Below are positions 2,221 through 34,502 of a DNA stretch of 64,000 nucleotides, in pieces (within the stretch, counting starts at the first letter, position 1; each line of letters opens with the position of its first letter). Origin of the DNA: Favolaschia claudopus (Eukaryota > Basidiomycota > Agaricomycetes > Agaricales > Mycenaceae); contig JAWWNJ010000005.1 in NCBI GenBank assembly GCA_037176885.1, positions 2,480,001-2,544,000 on the forward strand, read 5' to 3'. A program made the translations under genes and the position numbers. The notes under the pieces were generated by a model, which saw only the letters and a program-made list of their open reading frames with translations, was not told the origin of the DNA and did not search any database.

Positions 2221-3782
2221 ATGCCAAGAATGGAGATAGGCGCGTTTGCCAACGTGACCGCGAACTTTCTCTCACGCCCCCCTTGTTCTCTTCAAGTTAG
2301 GCTGCCAGTGTGGCGCTTGCGCCTGCTGGCTTGTTTCCTCCTCATCGCCGGCTTCGACATGGACCAGATAATAATGTCTGCAGACGATGGAGGCGCCCCG
2401 ACGCCTATCTCACCCGGTAGCTCTTTCCTCTCTATGAGCGCGGACCTGCATTGAATTTCGGGTTTGCCATTCAAAAGACACTTATGAAGAGCTTACGCAT
2501 TACTTCAAGTACGCCTCGTCTGCGTATAGCCCCGTATGTTTGAGGCCGAATGGGAATACTCTTGTTCTGCAGGTTTGAGCGGGTTTTCTGTTACTTAAAT
2601 CCTACTTTTATTTTGATTTCGGTGCTTCCTGTAGTTCGGGAGTCAGGTAACCGATATTCAGGGCTTCATTGCCCGCGATGATCATCGTAAGGAGCTCATT
2701 GTAGCGCTTCGTGGAAGGTGCTGCTGGATTTTCTCTCTCGGCCACTTCCCTTCACGGATCTGCGATTTTGTGATTCAGTGCTTCAGTCGCCGACGCCTTA
2801 CTTGATGCCAGTGTTGTCCTGGTCCCTTTTTTGACTCCCGGTGTCAAACTTCCGCGTCAGTATCTTGCTCTCCTTCGCAGATATCTCCTTGTATTACTGA
2901 ACTGAAGCTTGTTCGCAGCGAAAGCGCGTGTTCACGCCGGTTTTCTTGCTGCGTACATTCACTTTCCTCTCTTCACCGTCCGCTCGATTCTGATGCATAT
3001 CCAGATGGGACAGTGTTGCCGTGCAGATTACTACTGCTCTCGCCGCTCAGCGGCAACTTCATCCTGGGCACCGTCTCGTTACTGTTGGGCATTCACTTGG
3101 AGGGGCACTAGCAACTCTGGCTGCTGTGTCGCTCCTTCAGATCTTTCCGGTCTCGCCAGTGATGGATCAGACACGGACTTACTCGTACGGCGCTCCGCGA
3201 GCTGGTGTGCGTATGCTGTTTATTGCCACCGCTTTCTTATTCCTGATTGTAGCGATGCTACAAAGAACCAGGTGTTCGCCGAGTATGTGAATGCTGAGTT
3301 TGGAGCCCGCGCATTTCGAGGTATGCTTCTCTGCGTATTTGGCATAAATGTTTCGCCTAACCGTCTTCTATCTAGTCGTGCATACCAACGATGGGTGTGT
3401 CAAATGGAATTTCGAGTCGCTGTCGGTTTCTTATCGCTCGCAGCGTCCCAACAATTATCCCGACATCGCTAGGTTATCATCACCACGGTCCGTCATCGCT
3501 CTCTTTGCTTGCATTTCTTGACGTGGCCGGCCGTTTGCTGAGACAGGCGTCGAGTATTGGCAACACCTCGATCCACCCTCTCCCTCGACGACGGTGCGAT
3601 GCGCAGCGGGAGGCGAGGACCCATTCTGTTCCGCCAGCATTCCATCTCGCGGTGTCAACCCAGCGCATGCTACGGTCGGTGTATTTTCCACGATGATTTG
3701 TCGCTGTAGGCTGACTTCCATTCTTGATTACTATTGTTACTAGTATCTCGGTATCACTGTGCCGGCGCCATTTTGTTTGTAG
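2221..3782 (+). CDS. Secreted class-3 lipase / esterase
   Basis: An alpha/beta-hydrolase of the fungal class-3 lipase family (Rhizomucor lipase / feruloyl esterase A type), expected to cleave ester bonds outside the cell. Exons join cleanly to give TPISPDTYEELTHYFKYASS, a strand ending LIVALRGS, then VHAGFLAAY. The nucleophile elbow is GHSLGG (near 3090). The acid residue lies in VVHTNDGVPTIIP, joined across the intron that begins near 3390, and the catalytic histidine lies in HHHGVEYWQH. The Cys-containing tail DPFCSAS resembles secreted homologues. The end reads YLGITVPAPFCL, stop at 3780-3782. The start at 2221 is tentative: it gives a hydrophobic stretch LLACFLLIAGF preceded by an unusually long N-terminus, so a downstream or differently spliced start is possible. 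About eight introns. The complete catalytic triad suggests an active enzyme. Confidence 0.88.
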
Positions 3783-11017: not shown

Positions 11018-12397
11018 TCACCGACGCCCCGCATGCCTCCGGCTCTTCGCATACGCCTCGTCAGTCGGCGACATCTGGCGGCCACCCCCGGAAGAAGAAG
11101 AAGAAGCAACCGGCATCGACGCATGCGCGCGCAACGGCTGCACCGCACGCGGCGGCTTGACATCGACAAACTCGTCCGGATCTCCCATCGGATAGAAGCT
11201 GCTGAATTGACCCTCACCGGGCATCGCATCGTACCGGCCATAAGGCTGACTGTGATGATGATGCGTGGGGCGGGGATTCTGGGGCGGGGGAAGACCGAGC
11301 ATAGGCGTAGACTGGGTGCGGCTCGGCGTGCGGGAGGGAGGCATCTTCATGCGGCCGGAGCTGCGGGAGCTTGCGGTACTGGCACTGTTGGGAGCGCTAC
11401 CGTATTCTGAATCGCTCAGAAGCTCGTCGTCCTCGTCGTCTTCCGTGCTCAGGACCGGTGGGTTCCCCTTGTACATGCGTTTTCTGACTCGCTTGTCGCC
11501 TTCGCCCTGAGTAATGTCGAGCTGCCAATAAACGCCTTTGCCAGGGTCTGTCACAGGCCGGTTGACCTTGACGAAGACAGCTTTCAGGGAAAGAAGGTGG
11601 CGGATGGACCTCTGAGCAGTGATGATTTGCGTTAGGGAAGTACATACGGGAATAAATAAAGCGACTTACAGTCCATGGACCTCCAGGACTCTCGCGGAAA
11701 TATCGAAACCGATACATGAGCGCGTCGTAGATCCCTTGCAATGGCAAACAGCGCTTCGGGCTGCCATAGATGGCGACCTTCACGAGGTTGATGAGCGAAA
11801 CAGTAGGTTTCTCGCCGGTTGGTGGGTCCGCAAAGCACCGCAAGTCGACGGGAGTGCCGGGAGCGAGGTTCAACTGTTCGCGCAAATAGGGCCCAGCGTC
11901 GGGTATCTGACCACTCGAGTCACGGCTGCCCAACGGCTGATGAAAGGCGCTAGGCGGCAAGGCGGTGGGAAAGGCTGTTGGAGGGGGAGGAGCATACGGC
12001 GGCAAGGACGGCAGGGACGGGACTGCGTTCGGCCACTGTCGTTGAAAATTTATCGTAAATAAATAAAGAAACGTTCAACGTGAGGTAAGTAAATGAGACG
12101 AACCTGGGGATGAGGGCTGCCGCGATGACCCATGATATCACCGGGAGAAACATACTGTTGGGGAGGAGGACCGCGAGCAGGGAGGTAGGGCGAATCATCA
12201 TGGCGAGGGAGCCGATGCCCAGCCGGGAACGGCTGCTGAGGCCCAGCACGTCCGGTTCCGCGGCCATGAGGAAAGTTCCCGCCCGGAGACCCGGGATGGG
12301 AATCGTCGCCGTGGTAGGAGCGAAAGCTCCCGTCATGCGTGGCATACGGATCGGAGATGTTGAGTGAGTTGAAGCCGCTATACCACTGATCCGACAT
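11018..12397 (-). CDS. Forkhead-type transcription factor with atypical recognition helix
   Basis: A DNA-binding regulator of the forkhead winged-helix class, expected in the nucleus; about 407 residues in three exons. Residues 1-150 are low-complexity, rich in Gly, Pro and His. The forkhead domain spans about residues 173-250: GEKPTVSLINLVKVAIYGSP, then LPLQGIYDALMYRFRYFRE, then after an intron RSIRHLLSLKAVFVKV and DPGKGVYWQLD, ending with the basic wing GDKRVRKR. The tail is acidic (TEDDEDDELLSD), then Ser-, Pro- and His-rich. In canonical forkheads the recognition helix reads WQNSIRHNLSL; here the spliced exons give WTRSIRHLLSL, changing the base-contacting Asn and the second Asn while keeping the His. 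Target specificity may differ or be lost. The start at 12397 (MSDQWYSGFN) is the only good one in frame. Confidence 0.85.
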
Positions 12398-28623: not shown

Positions 28624-28632
28624 GTTAGAAAA
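28624..28632. repeat. Left 9-bp target-site duplication
   Basis: GTTAGAAAA immediately outside the left end of the transposon, identical to 34494-34502. Confidence 0.92.
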
Positions 28633-28818
28633 CAGGCTCCTACACAGCCGCGGTTTCGAGGCTCACAATAATTCGGGGAGGGATTACAATGTGAATTCTG
28701 AATAGATTTATGTAGTCAGAATAATCGTGAGAATAAGTGTGACATATGTGACCGAAAGTTGAGGGTGAGCCTCTCCACGGCGGCTGCCCGATAACATATA
28801 CAAATAACATAGCCACAG
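28633..28818. repeat. Left terminal inverted repeat
   Basis: The outer 35 bases match the right end with one change. A diverged centre of about 75 bases follows, then an inner block of about 90 bases that matches nearly perfectly and ends AACATAGCCACAG. The outer block contains the palindrome CCGCGG. The conserved outer and inner blocks suggest separate functions, cleavage site and transposase binding or promoter. Confidence 0.92.
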
Positions 28819-28911
28819 CGTGGACCCCGAGCGACCTTGGCACCACGCTAGATTTGCTCGACGCGTCGTGCTCCTCCAAACGCGACTACTCCTATGGTAC
28901 TCCCGCAGTAA

Positions 28912-31622
28912 ATGCCTAATGTTCATTCAAAATCAGTCTCGGCCTCCTCTAGCGCCGGCTCCCCACACTCCTTTGAAAAAATCCGCGCTGCAGCCATCAA
29001 GCACCTCGGATACACACCATGTCTGTGGCAGATTAAAGTCGTCGAAGCCGTCCTCCAGCATGACGGAGATGTCGTCTGTATATCAGCTACTGGGTCTGGG
29101 AAAACTCTCACCTTCTGGCTCCCTCTTCTCTTCAAAACCGACGGCATCCAATTGATTATCAGTCCTCTCAATATTCTCGGCGACCAGAACGTTGCTCAAT
29201 TGGCTGGGATGGGTATCAAGGGCATTTCAATCACGGCGGAAACAGCTACGTATCAAAACTTCCAGGTGTGTAAACTGTCGGCTCTGTATCGGCAGCAGCA
29301 ATTGACGCGACATGGTCCAGGATATTGAGGATGGGAAATACCGTGTTGTCGTGACCAACGTTGAGACGTTGATGCAGGCGGGTGGTGGCTTCGAGAAGCT
29401 GTGGAAGAGGCCACAGTTTACGTCGCGGCTGATCAGTCTCATCTGGGATGAGGGCCATTGCATCAGTAAATGGGCTGGCTTCCGTCCGGAGTACAAGGAG
29501 GTCGGCCGCCTTAGGTTTCTCATCCCACGCTCCATTCCCTTCGTTGTCGTGTCTGCGACACTCCCACCCGCTGTTCTCTCTGATGTAATGCAAACACTTC
29601 AAATTCATTCCGACAAAGTAACTATAATTCGGCGGTCAAATGACCGGCCCAACATTCACCTCACCGTTCGGGAGATGAAGTACCCAATGTGCAGCTTCAA
29701 GGACTTGGCTTTCCTCATCCCGGAGGACTGGAAACCCGGGGACCCACTCCCCGTCAAGTTTCTGATCTTCTTCGACAGCATCGCTGATTCTATCGAGGCT
29801 GCGAGATACCTCCGCAACCGCCTACCTCCCGAGCATAGACATAAAATAAAGTGGTTTAATTCGGAAATGTCATCTGAGTTCAAAGAAATTGAGGCGGAGG
29901 CCCTCCGGCTGGGGAAGATCTGGGGGCTTTTCTGCACAGACTCATTTGGAATGGTAAGTGCTCAATCGATGTTACGTCTTCTTTTGGTAACCGCGGCCCA
30001 GGGTCTTGACTTGGCCGACATACTTCTCGTTATTCAGTGGCGTTCAACCTGCGACATGTGTACTCTGTGGCAGCGACTCGGTCGCGCTGCCCGTGCCTTT
30101 CATCTCACAGCAAAAGGTTTATTTCTCGTGGAGCCGAAACGGTTCGATGCAAACATCGCGAAGGCCGAAGCTCGGGCGGCAAAGCGGGCAGCTGCTGTGA
30201 AGAAGAGGAAGCAGTGTTCTGACCCCACTGACCAGCCGCCAGCAAAGCGCGCCGCAGCCGCTTCTCCTGATGCCCCGAATGTCCCCATTCCTGTCCCCAT
30301 CTCTGCTCCAGTCACCACAGCCGTCGACGATCCGTCTCTCGACGTCTCCGATGAACTTGACGACACTGACGACATCCCCAACGATCCCCTCCAACCCCAC
30401 TCTCTTGCCAGTGCGGACAAAACTTCCCGCGCTGAATATCGTGCCGAGCGACGAGCTGCATATGCTGCAGTTGTTACGCATGAGCCCGGGTGGAAGAAAC
30501 AGCTGAAAAAGAGAGGTGCAGATCGCCTCGAGCCGGCGCTCGATGATTTTATCAATGCACCTACACGGCAGCCTGGCAATCCTTGTTACCGCGAGCCTAT
30601 TATGATTTTTTTTGGGAATGATAAGACGGGTGAGTGCATCAATTAAATATTAGACTCCTCACATACCTTTCTCTAGTCTCGACTCATATGCAGTGTCGGT
30701 CAGACCTGCGTGAAGGATGTCCGCGCTGTGTTGTCACAGACTCGGAGATCTGCTGTGAGCTGTGCTCCCCAGATGAGTTCTCCGAGTTTGCGCGCGTTGA
30801 TATACTCAAAGCGAAGGCTCAAGCTCCCCGCTCCCGTATCCCCAAATATGTAGCTGACCCATCCGACATGGCCTTGCGTACGGCCCTCCATTCTTTCCGG
30901 AAATCACGGGCTGGCGAAGTCCTCGGTCCTCTACATTATCGCAAACATGGCGCCGGCTCGATCATGTCAAGCGAGGTGCTCGATCGCATTGCGGATTGCG
31001 CACACTTCTACAAGATACAAAGCACAGCAGACCTGGCAAGAGAAACTGACTGGCATCGCATCGCTGAGGACGGAACCAAAGTCCTTGCCGTTATCATGCA
31101 GCATCGGCCGCCTCCAGGCCCCGCACCCTCTGTCCCGGCTCCCCTCCATTCCTCGAATACAAACTTACCTCTCGTTTCCACTCCCAAAAATCGTAAATGC
31201 GGCAAGTGCGGTCAATCTGGGCATATCGGTATGTCATATAACAATTTTTCACGCATTGCAATTGCTCAACAAACGTAGCTTCTAACCAAAAATGTCCAAA
31301 GTATAGTGCGCGTGGATCCGGTAGGCGTGTATCCACAATTGAGAACACACCGTGCACACCCACGAACCCAAACACATCTCGATCCACCCCTCCACTCAGC
31401 CCATCTTCTTTCGCTGTTACTCCACACCTGCAGTCTTGTCTTCCGTTCCGCCAAATTACGAATGCAATCCCATATAATCAATCTCCCATATCCTCCTATA
31501 GCAATAATTCACCCGCATCTCCATTCCGATTTACTTATAATTCCCAAATCAATTCTACGGTATCATCTTCGAGCACCTCTCCCTACATGTATCCACCACC
31601 ATCGCGTTATAATACAGAATAA
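28912..31622 (+). CDS. RecQ-type ATP-dependent DNA helicase with C-terminal zinc knuckle
   Basis: A superfamily-2 helicase carried by the transposon. After MPNVHSKSVS it has the RecQ-like lead YTPCLWQIKVVEAVL and Walker A ATGSGKT. TNVETL and the DEGH box follow in WDEGHCISKW, then SATLPP. The second RecA-like lobe has KFLIFFDSI, CTDSFGMGLDLADILLVIQW across an intron, and the arginine-finger motif QRLGRAARA. Further on is a Cys-rich zinc-binding segment, CPRCVVTDSEICCELC. The last exons give CGKCGQSGHIASNQKCPKY, a C-x2-C-x4-H-x6-C knuckle like that of TAF1, then a Ser/Pro-rich tail, stop at 31620-31622. Four introns, about 840 residues. It may unwind transposon DNA or help repair excision sites. 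The start at 28912 lies 94 bp inside the left repeat. Confidence 0.9.
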
Positions 31623-31661
31623 TTCATGCAGATTCACAGTGATTGTACAGCGTGAAGCAGA

Positions 31662-34268
31662 CTAGTCAACTAGAAGATCCTCTGCCTCTATTGTGCTATC
31701 TCCCGGCTCCTCCCCTTCGTCGTCTGGATGTTCTTGCCCAAATTTAGTCGACAGCATCTTGCCCTGACCTTGATCAATGATGTCCGGTATACTGTAGCTG
31801 GTTGTTCTACCGGCGCGCCGCTCGTTTGCTCCGTGTTCCTCCATATATCGAGTACATTTCTGGAGGGTTTTAGTCATGTCCGGTGGGCCATGGAGTGCAG
31901 TCAGCGAAGTAAGGATAAAATTTCGTGTGATGTTTTCGGCGCATTGGCTGTATATATGAATTAGCGGCGATTCTTCTAACACTCGTTGCTTTGTGTAGTT
32001 TGAACCACGTCCACCGTAGGTATCCTATTTCTGAGTAAATATCTGTCAGAAGTTCTGCAGTCAAAATTGGAAGACGCACTTTGGTTGGTAGATTGATCAT
32101 CTGCTCAACCACCCAGTCTACACCACGCGACTTTCCTTCTTGTCCTGTTGGGTTTGGGAGAATATTATATCGAACTGCATGGCGGAGGGGAGGTGGATAT
32201 TCAAAGTGTACATCATTCATGAATTTGAGCATATGTGCCGCATATTTGTGTTTTCCGACAGCCTTGAAGATATAGATCCACGTTGGAAATAGAGTTTCGA
32301 TCCGACCAATGTCACCGAAATTCATCGCAGATGAGAGTTCTTCGTACAGGCTGAAATACTGATGCATCTGAAGAATATTCTCCTTTTGTTGGTCCCGTTC
32401 GGCTGAGTGCTTTTGACGAAGCTCAAAAATGTTCAGGTCTTCAGCGCCAGCCACATAGTGTGAGGCCAGGTATTCAGATATCTCCTTGACAAGTTCAAAC
32501 GATGGTTTTGAGTCTGCGAATGCTTGAAGAGAGGTCCACTCTGAATTCCGGCGCAACACTTCTATGCGCCAGGCATCCAAGCGAAGAGCAGCTCCAACAT
32601 GGGCTATCACTTCATGCATTCGGCGAAATCCTGGATCGGAACTGATCTTCCCTGTTTCCTTCGGGCGTATGACTGCGCTGAAATGCATCAAGCTGGTGGT
32701 ATCGTCCCGTGCGGTTTTGGGCTCAATGAAGATCCGCCAAATTGCATCCGCTGCTGCCATCTTGAGGTGAAAAAGGCCCATAATGAAGATGACATACTGA
32801 TAACGACGCCATGGTGTTTCTTCGATTGAGCGCCGCTCCAGTATTGAAGCTATACGCTCCCCAGTTCCAAGATCACCATGAAATAAAACCACATAGGGAA
32901 CCATTGACTTGACATTGCGTTCCCAGATACCTTCGAACTTCTCCGAAGGATCACCGACTCCACCCTGCTCCAGAAATTCAGGAATGGCTTGCAGGTTTCC
33001 AGCCACGGTTGATTGCTTGATATCAAGCGAGCGCGCTGGTGCCCATCGCATCTTCACGACTGGTATTTGCTCTACCATCTCAGGTTTTCCCTGTTTGGTC
33101 GCAAAAGCGGAGAAAAATTCCGGCCCATATTTGATTAGATCCATGCGAAAGAGCCAAGCATTAAATCGTTCACGGCATGTCAAGTTGGATGGATGAAGGA
33201 TTTCGGGATGCAGGCTTTCAAAATGCTGCTCCAGATCAAGTATTGTACGGGTTGGATGCAAAGTTTTGGGGTCGGTGGTGGGATTGAGAGGATTTTTGAG
33301 CCACAGCTCCTGCGAGCAGCGGAGGTGTTCTGCTGTTACCCCATGCTCCAAGAGAATGAGGCCGCCCGATGTTAGATGGGTAAGGGTGTCAGTAGATTTT
33401 TCGCTGACTGGCACAAGACCCGGGAAGTTGATATCAAAATTGTCGTATGCGTATCCCGCAAGAAGTGTCTGTCCCATCGCTCGCAGTGTTTGATGGGTTT
33501 CCCGAGAAAGGGAGCGGACTGCGTTCTCGATCGCGTCTACAGAGATGGTGACGCCCATGTGCGCGAGAGTTTCGATGACTTTGTACGGGGTGTTTGAGGC
33601 ATGCAAAAAAATCCCAAACACACTCTCGAGTGCATTGCACTTGCTATTAGAGCTCTGCATTAAAATACTGATAATAACAACTCGTTTCTACCGTCTCATT
33701 CAATCTACGATGTAAATACTTGATAAGATTCAAAACTCACTATGATGAGGAGCGCTTCCCGCCGCGCCGCAAGTTTCTGAGCGCGCTCCGAAAGATTCTC
33801 CTCTGGCTCATCAAGATCCATCCCATCCTCAGCACCTTCAATGTCTGCGTCGCTCTGCTGACTAGCAGACAACAAGATTCCCACAAGATCCCACAGATCT
33901 GGCGCTAATCTCCTCATTTTGGCAGCCATATCTTCGATGCGGAAGTCCAGCAGCTGTTTGGCCGATGTATTGGACGCAGAAAAATGCCATCCATTTTCCT
34001 TGTCAGCCAGATCGCGAACATGTTGGGCATATTTCAGCTTTATTTTGCCGTTTGCCCATGCCAGAGTTGATTCGGAGGTGCGCGGATGGTCGAGAAATGC
34101 ATTGAAGACATCATTAGAATGATATATGAGATCCTCGACGGCGGAATGGCCGATAAACGATGGGTGACGGAGGATAGAGACGACGAATGATGGTATAGAC
34201 AGTCGCTGATCCTCCAATTTTGCCAATACTGCGCTAATTTGAGTGTGGGATGCCGTGGCAAGAGCCAT
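31662..34268 (-). CDS. DUF6589-like protein, proposed transposase
   Basis: About 832 residues in three exons (introns about 33665-33733 and 32031-32085). I recognise the pattern of the fungal family labelled DUF6589, whose function I do not know to be established. Exon 2 begins KRVVIISILMQSSNSKCNAL. Notable blocks are YAYDNFDINF (Asp about 258), VPYVVLFHGDLGTGE (Asp about 448), IFIMGLFHLKMAAADAIWR (His about 483), NILPNPTGQEG, and GGRGSNYTKQRVLEESPLI after the last splice. Two Asp residues at the ends of hydrophobic strands, then a xxH motif and late acidic residues, resemble the RNase H-like DDE fold of MULE and hAT transposases. The tail is acidic. It converges on the helicase gene and starts 41 bases inside the right repeat. 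The family label is fairly sure; the catalytic assignment is inference. Confidence 0.82.
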
Positions 34269-34308
34269 TCGCAGACAGAGTTGGTGAGCCTAATTGGGAA
34301 TCGGGGTC

Positions 34309-34493
34309 CTGTGGCTATGTTATTTGTATATGTTATCGGGCAGCCGCCGTGGAGAGGTTCACCCCTCAACTTTCGGTCACATATGTCACATTTATTCCCA
34401 CACCTCAAAGTGTATTTATTTCGACTCTGAATTAACAACTGAACACCGCTACAAGCACTGTGAACCTCGAAACCGCGGCTGTGTAGGAGCCTG
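34309..34493. repeat. Right terminal inverted repeat
   Basis: Reverse complement of the left repeat, with conserved outer (about 35 bp) and inner (about 90 bp) blocks. Confidence 0.92.
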
Positions 34494-34502
34494 GTTAGAA
34501 AA
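34494..34502. repeat. Right 9-bp target-site duplication
   Basis: GTTAGAAAA immediately outside the right end, identical to 28624-28632. Confidence 0.92.

Follow-up and report, generated by a model that had tools for sequence, protein, structure and literature searches.

AcademH is reportedly a lineage of the Academ superfamily, and it is the described kind of DNA transposon to which the element reported here most likely belongs. This two-gene element, 5861 bp in length, occupies positions 28633-34493 of a 64,000-nucleotide stretch (positions 2,480,001 to 2,544,000 of contig JAWWNJ010000005.1; hereafter the window) in the genome of the fungus Favolaschia claudopus (Mycenaceae); one of its genes encodes a protein of the family DUF6589 and the other a RecQ-like helicase. 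AcademH elements encode a helicase and have target site duplications of 9 or 10 bp, whereas those of AcademX are 3 or 4 bp long, and these lengths have been tied to their helicase and nuclease (PMC10045372). Other accounts describe AcademH as low-copy in Basidiomycota, Ascomycota, and Mucoromycota (PMC10799480) and mention putative non-autonomous Academ elements noticed in Marasmius oreades (PMC8290104). KolobokH elements, which are described from fungi only, encode a RecQ helicase and have 4-bp TTAA duplications, and one Kolobok from a red alga has a RecQ helicase on the complementary strand (PMC9587614). A C/DxxH signature is given as common to MuDR, hAT, P, Kolobok, and Dada (PMC9587614, PMC10045372).

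We put at about 0.9 the probability that an intact, autonomous DNA transposon is present in the window, that it belongs most likely with AcademH, and that the DUF6589 protein is its transposase. The make-up of AcademH has already been described, and the new part is probably the link to DUF6589. In the literature searched, the name DUF6589 was not found, the mentions of its Pfam accession PF20231 were unrelated as judged by their titles, and no paper was found that combines Favolaschia claudopus, its genome, and transposable elements. As far as that literature goes, a connection of DUF6589 with a transposase may be new to print.

Ends, empty sites, and full-length copies

The element is bounded by a perfect 9-bp duplication, GTTAGAAAA, at 28624-28632 on the left and 34494-34502 on the right, and its termini form inverted repeats at 28633-28818 (left, plus strand, beginning CAGGCTCCTACACAGCCGCGG) and 34309-34493 (right, minus strand). 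The ends are mirrored across about 185 bp, with matching arms in an outer block of 38 nt (28630-28667 and 34459-34496, 95%) and in inner blocks of 39 nt (28727-28765 and 34363-34401, 95%) and 56 nt (28763-28818 and 34309-34364, 98%); a variable stretch separates the outer from the inner blocks. The same outer and inner blocks are the conserved ones in an alignment of 22 ends from 11 copies. A preliminary description of the window had claimed both the duplication and inverted repeats of this length and layout, and both were borne out.

Within the conserved blocks, each end contains a 22-nt motif in two inverted copies. The outer copy of the left end (28645-28666, plus strand) recurs inverted at 28765-28786 (minus strand, 82%), and the inner copy of the right end (34341-34362, minus strand) is inverted with respect to the outer one at 34460-34481 (plus strand, 82%). 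The paired motifs are separated by 97-98 nt in each end, and the same layout is present again in both ends of a second family, represented by the locus L036. To judge from this arrangement, the paired motifs look like binding sites of the proposed transposase.

The 264.6-Mb assembly was searched with joined flanks as queries for empty sites. For the window copy, such sites occur on contigs C175 and C48, where GTTAGAAAA is present just once and the bases next to the junction are the same. Because both loci are homologous to the flanks in the window across the 3.4 kb compared (76-91%), they are true empty sites. The corresponding query for a second copy, L009, matches one place across the junction (93%, query positions 1-300), and that for a third, L010, matches three (90%, query positions 1-201), both as read from match tables only. 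The three L010 matches lie on C225, C110, and C51, and all align at 90% to one and the same stretch of 201 bases; because three other contigs match it, L010 probably sits in repeated sequence.

Besides the window copy there are three other full-length copies, L009 (5862 bp), L010 (5852 bp), and L011 (6418 bp); every one of these is flanked by a perfect duplication of 9 bp that is its own. Empty sites and further copies with 9-bp duplications, which the preliminary description had named as the means of checking its proposal, are therefore both at hand. L009 and L010 have both genes intact with the same splice sites, whereas both genes of L011 are broken. In an alignment of 5850 bases, L009 and L010 share 98.96% identity, and the window copy is about 81% identical to each. 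Ratios of nonsynonymous to synonymous substitution (dN/dS, NG86) between the window copy and L009 or L010 are 0.065 and 0.068 for DUF6589, with 11 codons at the start of exon 2 omitted, and 0.177 and 0.173 for the helicase. Such values mean that selection for function has acted on both proteins.

A census of DUF6589 genes in the assembly, based on a DNA search (six loci) and on the degenerate pattern GLFHLKMA or GFFHLKMA (seven loci, none in the control), covers the copies that retain this motif. The seven loci are the window copy, L009, L010, L011, L036, L034, and L033. Six of them have a converging helicase gene, and four are flanked by both ends with a 9-bp duplication. At L034 (C160) the two genes converge, and visual inspection shows no more than the remnant of an inner end; outer ends were looked for there and not found. 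At L033 (C8), an end-like sequence, CAGTCTCCTACCCAGCCGCGT, lies upstream of the DUF6589 gene at a distance of about 1.4 kb, an inverted inner copy of the motif stands directly before that gene (3681-3703), and no helicase match was found in the 9.9 kb examined, which extends about 3.5 kb beyond the gene. One could also imagine DUF6589 as a stable single-copy host gene whose flanking repeats are coincidental. The seven loci, the empty sites, and the near-identical copies at different sites all speak against such a gene, and for the window copy the empty sites refute it; we give this explanation practically no weight.

The DUF6589 protein and its helicase partner

The DUF6589 gene, the proposed transposase gene, lies on the minus strand at 31662-34268 (exons 34268-33741, 33687-32080, and 32024-31662) and encodes 832 amino acids by count; the start of exon 2 at 33687 was set from the annotated protein P0001. 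The gene for the RecQ-like superfamily 2 helicase lies on the plus strand at 28912-31622 (exons 28912-29265, 29321-29953, 30002-30629, 30677-31228, and 31279-31622; 836 amino acids), with introns inferred from the open frame and from splice sites that recur in L009 and L010. The two genes converge, ending at 31622 and 31662 with 39 bases separating their stops, and both are free of internal stops once the GT..AG introns are removed, just as the preliminary description had it in calling them two intact multi-exon genes. The public protein P0001 ends at exon 2 and omits the third exon (31662-32024), which relatives conserve; further DUF6589 entries in public databases may likewise lack C-terminal sequence.

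In Pfam, the DUF6589 protein matches PF20231 with E=3.5e-91. Two predicted models of the protein have DDE transposases, namely those of the P element and Hermes, as their top structural matches, with weak Foldseek E-values; both rank above ISCth4, and the absence of other transposase families from the match lists carries no evidential weight. A conserved set of D, D, and E is located about where the catalytic residues of the matched transposases sit. The exon with the proposed catalytic domain (32080-33687, minus strand) holds this proposed triad as its D82, D272, and E528, equivalent to D258, D448, and E704 of P0001. Among sequences with a letter at these positions, D258 is conserved in 63 of 65, D448 in 64 of 64, and E704 in 60 of 61. 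The protein is thus very probably the transposase, and it appears to be a DDE enzyme whose RNase H-like fold contains a helical insertion. It would then resemble the transposases of the hAT, P, RAG1, and Transib type, in which a mostly helical insertion interrupts the RNase H-like core. The earlier proposal, in which DUF6589 proteins act as the transposases of one group of DNA transposons and the helicase as an accessory factor, gains support from the copies with duplications, the empty sites, and the DDE-like models.

The 9-bp duplication had originally been taken as a hint of a Mutator-like element (MULE), and one could accordingly imagine a MULE that acquired a helicase gene, with DUF6589 as a diverged MULE transposase. 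However, the Pfam matches are to PF20231 and to no family of the MULE kind (E up to 1 for the window protein, up to 0.1 for the proteins P0040 and P0241); for the window protein, the only other match at E up to 1 is an unrelated one below the cut-off. The position of the C/DxxH signature reads GxxH, being GLFH in 56 and GFFH in 8 of 65 aligned sequences, with the remaining one misaligned, and the higher structural ranking of the P element and Hermes over ISCth4 also disagrees with a MULE origin. We therefore rejected the Mutator-like filing, on the missing MULE domain and the GxxH motif, and regard this origin as quite unlikely.

A 63-sequence DUF6589 profile run against the sequences of solved structures at E up to 1 returned seven matches, all to GabR (E of 0.53 or more) and none to a transposase. 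NCBIfam had no match for P0001 and one weak bacterial match for P0040 (E 0.083), and Rfam had no match at gathering scores. A profile search for distant relatives, restricted to proteins of up to 1.75 times the query length, found 93 proteins (E up to 0.001), every one with PF20231; two have an extra domain (PF26138 and PF12937, respectively), and none of the 93 contains a helicase domain.

The helicase has Pfam matches to DEAD (E=5e-21) and Helicase_C (E=2.4e-10), and a C-terminal stretch resembling a zinc knuckle matches under the Pfam cut-off. The solved structures nearest to its helicase domain are those of WRN (E=4.2e-27), RecQ5, and bacterial RecQ. P0121, a close relative, matches TIGR00614 (recQ_fam) at 8.8e-38, which is below the curated cut-off of that family. 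Because the helicase accompanies DUF6589 at six of the seven loci, it might be thought to move the element itself, with DUF6589 as a passenger or regulator. No nuclease family above the Pfam cut-off was found in the helicase, except for the helicase-core model ResIII, and DUF6589 has both the lower dN/dS and the DDE-like predicted fold. Terminal inverted repeats combined with duplications of fixed length are, moreover, a mark of a DDE-type transposase, which also counts against movement driven by the helicase. We find this explanation hardly credible, and continue to regard the DUF6589 protein as the proposed transposase.

Small copies, a second family, and other fungi

The terminus of the window element and its relatives (family 1) has 45 matches genome-wide at 0-1 mismatch, as compared with none in the control. 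Twenty-six of the 45 come from 14 copies in which two CAGG-type ends stand no more than 10 kb apart; two of these copies have a changed second end that falls outside the 45 matches. A perfect 9-bp duplication flanks all 14 copies; that of L018 is 9 bp only with the terminus taken one base shorter, and 8 otherwise. Places where only the inner blocks of two ends match (C195, C145, C38, and C40) are outside this count. The 14 copies consist of the window copy, L009-L011, seven copies of about 680 bp (L012-L018), L019 (307 bp), L037 (899 bp), and L038 (about 1.2 kb), and their target sites tend to G or C at the outer positions and to A or T in the middle. The small copies have the ends and no match to DUF6589 or the helicase, and for this reason they must have moved in trans. 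The two ends of each of the small copies L012-L018 are 95-98% alike, which exceeds the similarity between copies (mean 92%), whereas the two ends of the full-length copies (window and L009-L011) are only 74-77% alike; the ends of the small copies may have been homogenized.

The second family is represented in full length by L036 (C54, 3478-9571), whose DUF6589 protein, P0038, is 51% identical to that of the window. Its inverted arms measure 35 nt (86%) and 124 nt (94%), and its DUF6589 and helicase genes converge. End matches of this family number at least 68, and many stand in pairs about 505 bp apart. They mark a numerous small element whose ends resemble those of the C54 element with DUF6589. 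Among the two-ended copies that we selected from the paired places (19 of 439-507 bp and one of 3546 bp), the duplication is exactly 9 bp in 20 of 20, never 8 or 10. These duplications comprise 17 different sequences, one being shared by three C67 copies and another by the copies on C114 and C74, and the target sites tend to a purine first and a pyrimidine last. The small copies on C67 (L053, L054, and L055) and on C114 and C74 (L060 and L062) lie at different positions; because they share the duplication together with adjoining bases, they were probably multiplied within larger segments and not separately inserted.

These duplications bear on whether the element could be a KolobokH transposon, a fungal Kolobok with a RecQ helicase, or a near relative. 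KolobokH is described as confined to fungi and carries a RecQ helicase, and the helicase of the red-alga Kolobok is on the complementary strand, as it is here (PMC9587614). However, the 4-bp TTAA duplications of Kolobok are contradicted by varied 9-bp duplications in the 34 copies scored, and DUF6589 has no C/DxxH motif. A KolobokH assignment was rejected on duplication length, and we hold it to be very unlikely.

Some observations count against the reading as a DNA transposon. For 18 of the 19 remaining family-1 terminus matches (the one on C156 was left out), a partner end or a repeated 9-mer was sought on the element side over about 6.5 to 10 kb, and no partner was found except for facing ends in L046, L048, and C84. 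The facing ends of L046 and L048, two places that look much the same, have flanks GAACTGCGG and AGTTTGGAT, which form no matching direct repeat. On C84, CAGG ends lie 12.2 kb apart with flanks GGGGCCTCT and AGAGGCCCC that are reverse complements of each other, again without a matching direct repeat. The full-length L036 has flanks AGCCGCCAT and CCTCTTAGG and no matching 9-bp duplication, which argues against a simple insertion at that place; recombination or later change could be the explanation. In L046 and L048, an end of another type, different in three letters, lies about 4.8 kb from the CAGG end.

The stretches L046 4750-9562 and L048 4824-9640 possibly each consist of two neighboring elements of different families. 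C84 contains four single ends (L039-L042) with the same GGGGCCTCT flank, two per orientation, across about 125 kb, and these are probably a repeated larger segment.

Relatives of the DUF6589 protein number 335, and among the best 120 of these all entries that carry an organism name are fungal. Ninety-six of these entries come from named genomes; 24 of the 96, the window's own being one of the 24, share a contig of identical length within one species with an entry from the helicase search, from which 118 of 253 relatives were entered into the comparison (the best 120 of 253 being listed). Three shared contigs are short (5872, 6440, and 10158 bases), and four further ones were recognized by eye (458247, 215705, 205353, and 415399 bases). 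The latter include one from Cerrena zonata with consecutive tags, QCA50_014705 for DUF6589 and QCA50_014706 for the helicase; the tags of the pair in Bondarzewia are g2697 and g2695. A long shared contig alone is weak evidence of linkage. How often DUF6589 lies between matching ends beside a helicase gene, a question raised in the preliminary description, is thus answered for this genome (six of seven loci with helicase, four of seven with both ends), and for other fungi by shared contigs only.

Apart from the element, the window contains an open frame at 11400-12074 on the minus strand with a partial Forkhead domain (PF00250, E=9.2e-7).

Proposed mechanism and comparison with known systems

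In the mechanism that we propose, the DUF6589 transposase would bind the inverted motif pair that lies within either terminal repeat, cut next to the CAGG ends, and join them to the target across a 9-bp stagger, the repair of which would give rise to the target site duplication. The same enzyme would also move the small gene-less copies in trans. Cut-and-paste movement is assumed here. The RecQ-like helicase, whose role is the least certain step, might open the DNA at the ends or at the target, or aid repair. If correct, this proposal assigns a function and three testable catalytic residues to a Pfam family with hundreds of fungal members. The intact copies, exact ends, empty sites, and gene-less small copies also provide material to ask if, and why, a DDE transposon needs a helicase of its own.

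Mutator-like elements have long terminal inverted repeats, as does the element described here, and the range of their duplications includes 9 bp. They differ from it in the MULE domain and the C/DxxH motif, both absent here, and in the linked RecQ-like helicase. The transposases of hAT elements (Hermes) and of the P element provide the solved folds closest to the DUF6589 models; by sequence, in contrast, the DUF6589 profile matches no transposase among solved structures at E up to 1. The duplications of hAT and P elements are 8 bp. KolobokH is similar in being a fungal DNA transposon with a RecQ helicase, but combines 4-bp TTAA duplications with C/DxxH where the present element has varied 9-bp duplications and GxxH.

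The proposed GxxH DDE transposase, the predicted fold nearest to those of the P element and Hermes, the helicase partner, and the 9-bp duplications could also mean that elements with DUF6589 and a RecQ-like helicase form a superfamily of their own and not a branch of Academ, which we consider unlikely. The comparison with AcademH was made by description, and the likeness consists of the helicase and the duplication length. A DDD/E transposase, a further feature of AcademH, may have a counterpart in the DUF6589 protein, since the predicted fold, at weak Foldseek E-values, and the conserved D, D, and E point that way. Like AcademH, the element encodes a helicase, here RecQ-like and convergent with the DUF6589 gene at six of seven loci, and it resembles AcademH in the size of its duplications, which here is always 9 bp (14 of 14 family-1 copies and 20 of 20 small family-2 copies, with none at L036).
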